Origin: Terriglobales bacterium
Lineage (GTDB): Bacteria; Acidobacteriota; Terriglobia; Terriglobales; Acidobacteriaceae
NCBI GenBank assembly: GCA_035487355.1
Contig: DATHMF010000093.1
Location: 1-64,000 of the forward strand
Length of the DNA: 64,000 bases
Reading direction: 5' to 3'
Each line of letters opens with the position of its first letter. The first letter of the stretch is position 1. The notes under the pieces were generated by a model. The model saw only the letters and a program-made list of their open reading frames with translations. It was not told the DNA's origin and did not search any database. Positions 21,062 through 40,292 of this stretch are shown here, in pieces. Position numbers and translations under genes: made by a program.

Positions 21062-22576
21062 GTGGTGGCTGACGACAGCACGGTGATGCGTCACGGCAAG
21101 CCGCTGAAAACCACATCCATGGACGTTCTCGAAAAGCTTTTTGAGCAGCACTTTCACGCACCGGTCAAGCGGTCGCAGCCGCTGCAGGGGCAACTGGGCG
21201 GGTCGGGGCGTCAAATCATCCGGCTGGCTGGGGAAAAACTCAGCGCCATCGGCATTCGCTACGGCGTGCGCGAAGAGAACATCGCTTTCCTCGAGTTCTC
21301 GCGGCATTTTCGCAGGCACGGCCTGCCCGTCCCGGAAATCTATGCGGAAGATTTGGGCCAGGGGGCGTACCTGGAAGAAGACCTGGGTGACATCACGCTT
21401 TTTGAGTTCCTCTCGCAGAACCGCGATGGCGACGACATTGCTCCTGAGGTCATTGAAGCCTATCGCAAGGTTGCGGCCACGTTGCCGCGCTTTCAGATCG
21501 AAGCCGGGCGCGACCTGAATTACAAGCGCTGCTATCCGCGCCACAGCTTTGATCGCCAGTCCATCGCCTGGGACCTGAACTATTTCAAATATTATTTTCT
21601 CAGGCTCGCCAGCATCCCCTTCAACGAGCAGGCGCTGGAAGATGATTTTGCCCGCCTGACCAGGTTCCTGTTGACCGCCGAGCGCGATTACTTTCTCTAT
21701 CGCGATTTTCAGTCACGCAACGTCATGTTGCGCGACGGGCAGCCATTTTTTCTGGATTACCAGGGCGGCCGCAAAGGCGCGCTGCAATACGATATCGCTT
21801 CTCTTTTGTATGACGCCAAGGCCGATCTGCCGTCTGAGCTGCGCCAGCAACTGCTCAATCACTATCTCGACACGCTTGCCGGTTTTATCAAGCTGGAGCG
21901 GGAAGTATTCATGCGGCACTACTATGGCTACGTTTATGTCCGCATCATGCAGGCGCTGGGCGCTTATGGCTTTCGCGGCTTTTACGAGCGCAAGCCTCAT
22001 TTTCTGCAAAGCGTGCCCTATGCGCTCAAGAACCTGCGCTGGCTGCTGCACAACGCCGAGCTGCCTATTGCACTGCCGGCGCTGATGGAAGCATTCAAAA
22101 ACATGCTGGGGTCGGAGAAGTTACAGAGCCTGGCGCCCGAGGGAAACAACCTGACGGTGCGGATTTTCAGCTTCTCATTTCACCACGGGATGCCGACCGA
22201 CGAGACCGGGCACGGTGGTGGATTCGTCTTCGATGCGCGCAGCATTCCCAATCCGGGACGCGAAGAGCGTTTCAAGGACCTCACCGGCAGAGATGTACCG
22301 GTGATCGAGTACCTCAATCAGCAGGAGAGCGTGCATCACTTTCTTGCCAGCGTGATGTCGCTGGTAGATGCGAGCGTGAGCGATTATCAGCGCCGCGGCT
22401 TTAAGAACCTGATGGTATCGTTCGGCTGCACCGGCGGCCAGCATCGCTCGGTGTACCTGGCGGAGCGGCTGGCAAAACATCTGCACGGCAAGAGTGGCGT
22501 GGAGGTCGTGGTGCGGCATCGTCAATTAGAGAAGCTGGGTCTGGAAAAGTTGAGCGTGGAGACGCCGGGCCAATGA
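21062..22576 (+). CDS. AmgK-like amino-sugar kinase fused to RapZ C-terminal domain
   Basis: A 504-residue two-domain protein. Residues 20-345 are an aminoglycoside-phosphotransferase-fold kinase most like AmgK, the anomeric MurNAc/GlcNAc kinase of peptidoglycan recycling: YRDFQSRN (213-220) is the catalytic loop and FLDYQGGRKGALQYDIASLL (230-249) the metal loop. Residues 364-490 match the RapZ C-terminal domain, with SFSFHHGMP, FDARSIPNPG and the hallmark GCTGGQHRSVYLAERLA (455-471). The RapZ N-terminal P-loop domain is absent. In E. coli that C-terminal domain binds glucosamine-6-phosphate. The stop overlaps the next gene's ATG. The GTG start at 21062 is uncertain; ATGs at 21086 and 21119 are possible. 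Confidence 0.88.
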   Translation: MVADDSTVMRHGKPLKTTSMDVLEKLFEQHFHAPVKRSQPLQGQLGGSGRQIIRLAGEKLSAIGIRYGVREENIAFLEFSRHFRRHGLPVPEIYAEDLGQGAYLEEDLGDITLFEFLSQNRDGDDIAPEVIEAYRKVAATLPRFQIEAGRDLNYKRCYPRHSFDRQSIAWDLNYFKYYFLRLASIPFNEQALEDDFARLTRFLLTAERDYFLYRDFQSRNVMLRDGQPFFLDYQGGRKGALQYDIASLLYDAKADLPSELRQQLLNHYLDTLAGFIKLEREVFMRHYYGYVYVRIMQALGAYGFRGFYERKPHFLQSVPYALKNLRWLLHNAELPIALPALMEAFKNMLGSEKLQSLAPEGNNLTVRIFSFSFHHGMPTDETGHGGGFVFDARSIPNPGREERFKDLTGRDVPVIEYLNQQESVHHFLASVMSLVDASVSDYQRRGFKNLMVSFGCTGGQHRSVYLAERLAKHLHGKSGVEVVVRHRQLEKLGLEKLSVETPGQ

Positions 22577-23301
22577 AAGCCATGGTTCTGGCCGCCGGCC
22601 TGGGCACGCGCCTGCGGCCGCTCACCGACACCCGGCCCAAGGCGCTGGTGGAAGTCGGCGGGCGCACGCTGCTCGGGACCACGCTCGCCCGTCTGCGCGA
22701 CTTTGGGATTGGCGAGGTGATCATCAATGTGCATCACTTTGCCGACATGATCGTTGACTACCTGAATGGCAACCATAACTTCGGCATGCGCATTGAAGTT
22801 TCGCGCGAAGAGGTTCTGCTCGATACCGGCGGCGGGCTGAAAAAGGCTGCCTGGTTTTTTCTCGAGGATTCCAGCCGCTTAGACACGCCGTTCATTTTGC
22901 ACAATGTGGATGTCATCAGCACGATTGATCTGGCGCGCATGGTGCAATTCCACACTGAAAATCAGGCCCTGGCCACGCTCGCAGTACAGGAACGCCAGAG
23001 CTCCCGACACCTGCTCTTTGATGAGCAGCTTCAGCTTTGCGGCAGAGGGCGCGGGCAAAATCAGAAAGACGAATTGGTTGGGTCTTCATCGCAAGCGCAG
23101 ATGAAAGCACTGGCGTTTTCGGGTATCCACGTTATCTCTCCTCGCCTTCTTACCATGATGACGGAAAACGGCGTCTTTTCCATCATTGACTCCTATTTGA
23201 ATCTCGCTGCCCGTGGAGAAAAGATCATCGCGTTCCGGGCGGATGAATATCAATGGCGTGATCTCGGCAAGGTGGAAGATTTGAGGCAAGGCGGCAATTA
23301 A
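22573..23301 (+). CDS. murU: MurU-like sugar-phosphate nucleotidyltransferase
   Basis: A 242-residue nucleotidyltransferase. The N-terminal signature MVLAAGLGTRLRPLTDTRPK binds the nucleotide and sugar phosphate; HNVDVIS is the metal-binding Asp segment, and EYQWRDLGKVEDL closes the domain. Next to an AmgK-like kinase the best reading is MurU, which makes UDP-MurNAc from MurNAc-1-phosphate in the recycling route that bypasses fosfomycin. Mannose-1-phosphate guanylyltransferase-like activity cannot be excluded. ATGA overlap with the kinase implies coupled translation. Confidence 0.85.
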   Translation: MKAMVLAAGLGTRLRPLTDTRPKALVEVGGRTLLGTTLARLRDFGIGEVIINVHHFADMIVDYLNGNHNFGMRIEVSREEVLLDTGGGLKKAAWFFLEDSSRLDTPFILHNVDVISTIDLARMVQFHTENQALATLAVQERQSSRHLLFDEQLQLCGRGRGQNQKDELVGSSSQAQMKALAFSGIHVISPRLLTMMTENGVFSIIDSYLNLAARGEKIIAFRADEYQWRDLGKVEDLRQGGN

Positions 23302-39556: not shown

Positions 39557-39889
39557 TTACGTTTCCAAACTTCCCTGCTCAATCACCACATTCTCGCGCA
39601 CAATCAGACGGTGCGATGCCATCTCGCGCAGCTTGGGTAAAACCCGTTGCACATGCTCTTCGCTATCTACAAAGACAATGACCACAGGCAGCTTGCCTCC
39701 GGCATCCACCAGGCTTGAGGTCTTCACCCGGCTGCGTCCGGTGAACCCGGCCACGGCATGAAACACCGTAGCGCCGGCCACGTTTTCTTCGCGCAAATAT
39801 TTCAGGATTTCCAGATGCAACGGCCGGTGCTGCCACTGATCGGCTTCGTTGAGATAGATGGTGATCTGCACGGCCATACCGATGCCCAT
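39557..39889 (-). CDS. DUF190 protein, PII-like, partner of crcB
   Basis: A 110-residue protein of the DUF190 family, which has a GlnB/PII-like fold. VQITIYLNEADQWQHRPLHLEIL, AGATVFHAVAGFTG and LPVVIVFVDSEEHV are typical. It follows crcB by 28 bases on the same strand, a common pairing, and so shares the fluoride riboswitch. It may regulate or assist the fluoride channel. ATG at 39889 is taken; 39877 is possible. Confidence 0.87.
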   Translation of the reverse strand: MGIGMAVQITIYLNEADQWQHRPLHLEILKYLREENVAGATVFHAVAGFTGRSRVKTSSLVDAGGKLPVVIVFVDSEEHVQRVLPKLREMASHRLIVRENVVIEQGSLET

Positions 39890-39917: not shown

Positions 39918-40292
39918 CTATAGCCATCGCGCCAGGGCCGCTCCGCCGATGACGGCCGCCAGACACAAAATGTTGTTGGCCAGGATGTTGGCCGCCATCA
40001 AGTGCCACTGGCCCTGCTCCATGTAGGCGAAGGTCTCAAAGGCATAGCTGGAAAAGGTGGTAAACGATCCACAAAAGCCGATGGCAATGAAAAGACGCCA
40101 GCGCGGATCAGCCAGCACGCGCTCCGTGGTCCAGATCAGGAAGAAGCCAAGGACCAGGCTGCCGGAAACATTGATGATGAGCGTGCCGTACGGAAAAGTG
40201 GGTGAAAGGACCTTGGCCACATAACGGGAGAGAAAGTAGCGGAACCCAGCCCCTAGAATTGCGCCCAGAGAAACCCAAAGGTATGCCTGCAC
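39918..40292 (-). CDS. crcB: Fluoride exporter CrcB/FluC
   Basis: A 124-residue inner-membrane dual-topology fluoride channel with four helices. GAILGAGFRYFLSRY, TLIINVSGSLVLGFF and GFCGSFTTFSSYAFE (with the Phe box and central Na+ site residues) are diagnostic. The start is GTG at 40292 with GGAG eight bases before it. A fluoride riboswitch lies 24 bases upstream. Confidence 0.96.
   Translation of the reverse strand: MQAYLWVSLGAILGAGFRYFLSRYVAKVLSPTFPYGTLIINVSGSLVLGFFLIWTTERVLADPRWRLFIAIGFCGSFTTFSSYAFETFAYMEQGQWHLMAANILANNILCLAAVIGGAALARWL

Follow-up and report, generated by a model that had tools for sequence, protein, structure and literature searches.

The DNA analyzed here, a 64,000-bp stretch of a Terriglobales bacterium genome (contig DATHMF010000093.1; hereafter, the window), contains on its forward strand an open frame at positions 21062-22576 that encodes an AmgK-like kinase of the APH family followed by a complete RapZ C-terminal domain. 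The frame reaches a GTG codon at position 21062; however, a start at this codon would add 19 residues that are absent from the relatives, and most homologues begin at the methionine encoded by ATG 21119, which is therefore probably the start of the gene. Residue numbers of the fusion refer to the resulting 485-aa protein (21119-22576). The kinase domain, whose limits are approximate, spans positions 21119-22120 and includes the catalytic-loop motif YRDFQSRN (21698-21721; Asp196 and Asn201) and the metal-binding motif DYQGG (21755-21769; Asp213), both defined on an alignment of nine fusions. The RapZ C-terminal domain (residues 344-472; 22148-22534) carries an insertion, G-x-GGG, that is typical of the fusions and absent from RapZ proper (residues 364-368; 22208-22222), the pair Gly380-Arg381 (22256-22261) in place of the ligand-pocket residues His190-Trp191 of E. 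coli RapZ, and the phosphate-binding loop C-TGGQH-R-S (C437-S444; 22427-22450), i.e., C-x5-R-S, which corresponds to C247-S254 of E. coli RapZ (PMC7199280, PMC9841335). Downstream, and overlapping the stop codon of the fusion by 4 bases (ATGA), a gene on the same strand (22573-23301) encodes a MurU-like nucleotidyltransferase of 242 aa. A cytochrome P450 gene (19766-21040) lies immediately upstream of the fusion, with no conserved association seen, and the same genome (G000) also encodes a separate full-length RapZ on contig 104 (locus L001).

The first-pass annotation had described this frame as an AmgK-like kinase joined to a RapZ C-terminal domain without the RapZ P-loop domain and overlapping a murU-like gene, a composition that was borne out in full. 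Pfam identified the APH domain (PF01636) at E 1e-14 and, at residues 365-490 of the frame read from 21062, the RapZ C-terminal domain (PF22740) at E 1.2e-36, the search found no RapZ N-terminal P-loop domain (PF03668) in the fusion, and NCBIfam assigned the C-terminus to RapZ; structure prediction confirmed both domains. In AlphaFold2 models of nine fusions, the nearest known structure was 3csv for the kinase domain (Z 23.5) and the C-terminal domain of E. coli RapZ for the C-terminal part. The APH kinase fold is present with its catalytic Asp/Asn and its metal-binding Asp, the catalytic and DYQGG motifs are conserved, and the residues Y, R, D, Q, S, R and N of YRDFQSRN are invariant across the nine aligned sequences. 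The best NCBIfam kinase match of the fusion is AmgK (2e-15), with scores below the equivalog cut-offs (56.9 bits vs. 500 and 47.9 vs. 550), and that of the downstream protein is MurU (1.1e-37), also below its equivalog cut-off (130 bits vs. 250). The arrangement is that of the AmgK-MurU(-MupP) system of Pseudomonas (and Caulobacter), in which an APH-type anomeric kinase adjoins a small nucleotidyltransferase with UDP-MurNAc as the predicted product; it differs in that the kinase and the MurU-like protein of the window score far under the equivalog cut-offs. To our knowledge, the Pseudomonas AmgK has no RapZ domain, and the MupP protein of the Pseudomonas pathway is a separate HAD phosphatase.

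A scan of genome contigs retrieved at least 574 relatives of the fusion, the best 80 of which were all fusions or fusion fragments ended by a contig edge. These 80 came from Acidobacteriota, Bacteroidota, Elusimicrobia, Calditrichota, Neomarinimicrobiota, Ignavibacteria and Opitutae, so that the fusion is present in many phyla rather than being a local oddity. In 71 of the 80 loci, murU lies directly downstream, and it is the sole conserved neighbor there. The fusion gene is patchy in a set of 61 genomes related to that of the window, one of which, G060, has the kinase without the RapZ-type domain; such domain-less kinases adjoin murU in G060 and G091. In a sample of 218 Bacteroidota genomes, requested at a completeness of at least 90, the domain occurs together with the kinase in 26. 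Four of these 26 (G113, G094, G177 and G292) contain the kinase, a separate RapZ_C gene of 133-135 aa and murU in succession, and Pfam confirmed the domains of this split operon in G113 and G292. Since the RapZ-type domain is fused to the kinase in most genomes and is encoded by its own gene between the kinase and murU in four, it is most likely a module of the MurNAc salvage pathway and not an RNA adapter.

Some loci depart from the common arrangement. In one without murU beside the fusion (L096:1613-5010), a gene of the glucosamine-6-phosphate isomerase type and one for a GH20 hexosaminidase are among the neighbors, while in G030 a murA-like ORF, recognized by sequence reading, directly follows the fusion and murU (L004:3855-4457). 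Additionally, 47 Bacteroidota genomes, exemplified by loci L151-L154, carry a distant kinase and lack both RapZ_C and AnmK; in the four examples, the next gene encodes a longer MurU-like protein of 311-324 aa, which in L151 has a GlmU-like hexapeptide tail.

The assignment of the two genes to the salvage of MurNAc, already made from the window alone, is backed by the synteny across phyla and by genomes that carry the pair without MurA and MurB. Three genomes of the Bacteroidota sample (G074, G214 and G197; loci L122, L129 and L140) encode the fusion and MurU and retain MurC, other Mur ligases and several PBP transpeptidases; in these genomes, no MurA was found above the cut-off, with AroA-level matches only or none, and MurB was not found. 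Missing sequence is an unlikely cause in G214, whose matches lie on a single contig that covers at least 3.5 of 3.7 Mb. A further genome, G262, was left out of this group because it has no MurA match but does have MurB. As no MurA and no MurB were found, the fusion/MurU pair is the sole recognizable route to UDP-MurNAc in G074, G214 and G197, which are thus apparent MurNAc auxotrophs and should depend on salvaged MurNAc. Tannerella forsythia, a MurNAc auxotroph without MurA/MurB that has this dependence, has AmgK/MurU (PMC7670621); Parabacteroides, a member of the same family, Tannerellaceae, has the fusion. Judged from gene content, these genomes are the strongest evidence for the role of the kinase, which very probably phosphorylates MurNAc (and perhaps also GlcNAc) at C1, with the MurU-like enzyme then producing UDP-MurNAc and by-passing MurA/MurB.

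The RapZ fold of the C-terminus, on which the first-pass annotation had made its reading depend, was recovered. The domain modelled alone from 55 sequences reached a pLDDT of 93 and matched the C-terminal domain of E. coli RapZ (5o5s) with Z 19.6 and an rmsd of 1.4 Å over 123 residues; beyond RapZ itself, the other structural matches listed, including phosphofructokinase, fall to Z of about 7 or less. The residues equivalent to E. coli C247, T248, G249, G250, H252, R253 and S254 are invariant in 91 fusion domains, and in the model the C-x5-R-S/T loop lies between a strand (88-95) and a helix (101-113). The complete RapZ pocket (H190, T248, G249, H252, R253) is not kept, since four of its residues are conserved in all 91 domains while H190 is replaced by Gly in every one; W191 is Arg or Lys in 91/91, and the G-x-GGG insertion is invariant. 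The C-terminal domain of E. coli RapZ binds glucosamine-6-phosphate (GlcN6P), and its H190A variant loses function (PMC9841335). Given that His190 is Gly in every copy, GlcN6P is doubtful as the ligand of the fusion domain, which probably binds a different compound. Thus, the GlcN6P pocket originally proposed stands as far as the phosphate-binding loop is concerned, and GlcN6P itself is not supported as stated.

In a phylogenetic tree based on few columns, the fused and the stand-alone domains fall together on one side of a branch with RapZ on the other (SH-aLRT 100). The domain shares with RapZ of E. coli and YvcJ of B. subtilis the C-terminal fold and the phosphate loop C-T-G-G-x-H-R-S, and differs from them in belonging to a separate clade, in lacking the P-loop NTPase domain, in its Gly for His190 and its G-x-GGG insertion, and in the loss of most RNA-contact residues. 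On this tree, the fusion-type domain represents an old subfamily that is sister to the RapZ C-terminal domain; its derivation from the local RapZ was rejected because the two groups form separate clades. The description of the kinase as having gained the domain at its C-terminus is consequently misleading, as this old subfamily also occurs as a stand-alone protein encoded between the kinase and murU.

What the domain does can be approached from its phosphate loop. Khan and Gorke pointed out a likeness between the RapZ pocket and the loop of cysteine-dependent tyrosine phosphatases (PTP), and they proposed that GlcN6P is hydrolyzed (PMC7199280). Sulfate or malonate binds to this loop in E. coli RapZ, the C247S variant has lost function, and the density of GlcN6P appeared chemically transformed (PMC9841335). 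Phosphatase activity of the RapZ homologue YvcJ is among the reports cited in PMC7525490, as is, going by the title cited there, that of HpaP. The reading we tentatively prefer, a little short of even in our estimate, is that the RapZ-type domain is a sugar-phosphate phosphatase joined to the enzyme that follows it in the pathway, with MurNAc-6-phosphate (MurNAc-6-P; the MupP step) as its likely substrate. AnmK converts anhydro-MurNAc to MurNAc-6-P; the C-terminal domain, acting as a cysteine-dependent phosphatase, would bind the phosphate of the sugar phosphate in the C-x5-R-S loop and strip the 6-phosphate from MurNAc-6-P; the kinase domain of the same chain would then phosphorylate C1 of MurNAc, and the MurU-like enzyme would turn MurNAc-1-phosphate (MurNAc-1-P) into UDP-MurNAc. 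The fusion would hence do the work of the Pseudomonas MupP and AmgK in one chain; in Pseudomonas, MupP dephosphorylates the AnmK product MurNAc-6-P, a step required before AmgK acts (PMC5371407). MurNAc-6-P accumulates in E. coli K-12 when murQ is deleted (PMC5371407). Speculatively, the lactyl group of MurNAc could be accommodated and bound by Gly380 together with Arg/Lys381. Consistent with this phosphatase role, 11 domain-bearing genomes have AnmK and lack MurQ, eight from Bacteroidota (G087, G094, G099, G169, G177, G210, G262 and G292) and three from Acidobacteriota (G004, G030 and G057), and in these genomes MurNAc-6-P needs another exit. Against it, AnmK and MurQ are both absent from six genomes with the domain (G101, G113, G198, G206, G222 and G270), and MurQ is also present in most fusion genomes of Acidobacteriota and in several of those of Bacteroidota. 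The structural matches listed for the C-terminal domain include no PTP, LMW-PTP or rhodanese-like fold, with which the loop motif alone is shared, no general-acid residue was identified in the domain, and an ordinary HAD phosphatase may perform the MurNAc-6-P step instead.

Two gene-content comparisons were set aside as support for a MurNAc-6-P phosphatase. AnmK occurs in 19 of the 26 domain-bearing Bacteroidota genomes (one of these, G074, by a weak match) and in none of the 48 kinase-only ones; this contrast was not used because the 47 genomes with the distant kinase look like one lineage, judged by size and spacing, and because AnmK is present in 132 of 144 Bacteroidota genomes without the kinase, i.e., at least as commonly as in the domain-bearing ones. 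Against this background, the co-occurrence with AnmK gives the phosphatase no positive statistical backing. The absence of MurQ from acidobacterial fusion genomes (3/12 vs. 2/41) was not significant (p = 0.07).

Nearly as likely as the phosphatase, and also below even chances, is an allosteric sensor, in which the RapZ-type domain would bind GlcN6P, GlcNAc-6-P or MurNAc-6-P and switch the kinase, balancing salvage against de novo synthesis. The ligand known from E. coli RapZ, the invariant phosphate loop and the location of the domain, fused to or encoded beside a salvage kinase, agree with sensing, and its persistence without AnmK or MurQ fits a general sensor of amino-sugar phosphates. However, the Gly at position 190 and the G-x-GGG insertion make GlcN6P itself doubtful, the stand-alone protein of some genomes would need to act in trans, and mere binding needs no invariant Cys. 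In the first-pass annotation, a sensor of this kind was to act within the protein or through RNA; that regulatory view finds partial support, in that a phosphate-binding pocket is kept, an action on RNA is unlikely, and a phosphatase accounts for the data no less well than a sensor. The domain is homologous to the part of RapZ that binds RNA, which suggests regulation of glmS or of the salvage genes through a small RNA, as in E. coli; we give this reading very little weight, as the E. coli RNA contacts are mostly replaced. In the 91 fusion domains, the position of K170 is occupied by His in 50 and by Lys in 33, Phe replaces R238 in 90, Gln mostly replaces R211 and the basic tail beyond K281 is missing, while R184 is retained; residue 251 is uninformative for RNA binding because it is Gln both in the fusions and in the RapZ proper of the phylum. 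Nor does any known family of regulatory RNAs lie close to the fusion gene; a fluoride riboswitch is the sole Rfam match in the window. Additionally, the RapZ N-terminal domain was not found in 18 of 22 non-acidobacterial fusion genomes (three of the remaining four are Elusimicrobia), so that in those 18 the domain cannot serve a RapZ-type RNA circuit alongside RapZ. Together with the residue losses, the lack of RapZ in most of these genomes led us to reject an RNA adapter as the main reading.

An oligomerization or scaffolding role, in which the domain would hold the kinase and MurU together so that MurNAc-1-P is channeled between them, with a vestigial pocket, would suit both the dimers formed by the RapZ C-terminal domain (PMC5737377) and the domain-less kinases beside murU in G060 and G091; it is improbable, as a pocket without function would not stay unchanged across 91 sequences that represent many phyla. 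Somewhat less probable still is that the kinase and the MurU-like protein activate a sugar other than MurNAc, i.e., a hexose or heptose for surface glycans. Their scores below the curated cut-offs and the additional matches of HddC- and mannose-1-phosphate-type NCBIfam models would allow such a substrate, but MurU is the top-scoring NCBIfam model for the tested homologues, and the fusion genomes without MurA/MurB keep the rest of the peptidoglycan pathway. Beyond this locus, a phosphatase in the fusion raises the possibility, to which we assign a rather low probability, that the RapZ C-terminal fold originated as a phosphatase of sugar 6-phosphates, which still acts on MurNAc-6-P in the ancient fusion, and that E. 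coli RapZ is a derived regulatory form.

The same fusion is present in public databases as WP_005858754.1 of Parabacteroides distasonis and WP_237923178.1 of Bacteroides finegoldii, both named "RNase adapter RapZ" by NCBI. In these two culturable species (L167:3481-4911 and L168:3481-4911, respectively), the two domains occur in the same order and are followed by a MurU-like nucleotidyltransferase, with nothing essential that differs from the window fusion. The name is misleading because the protein is mostly an APH kinase and the RapZ N-terminal domain is missing, and it is likely a misannotation of the kinase fusion in gut bacteria. Among the papers searched, none contains both the names AmgK and RapZ, and none combines Bacteroides with "RNase adapter RapZ". 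The fusion is a variant of the known AmgK/MurU pathway, and what is new is a testable function for the RapZ fold. A protein family that occurs in many phyla, among them the Bacteroidota of the gut, receives a probable function in place of its public name. Bacteria without MurA and MurB, which belong to the pathway targeted by fosfomycin, appear to depend on the fusion/MurU pair for their cell wall. Since it resides in a metabolic operon without RNA machinery, the fusion allows sensing and catalysis to be told apart directly as roles of the RapZ C-terminal fold.

Elsewhere in the window, the fluoride riboswitch (RF01734; 40310-40378, reverse strand; 61.7 bits) is an ordinary one, located just upstream of an ORF read from its sequence as crcB-like (39918-40292) and a small ORF (39557-39889).
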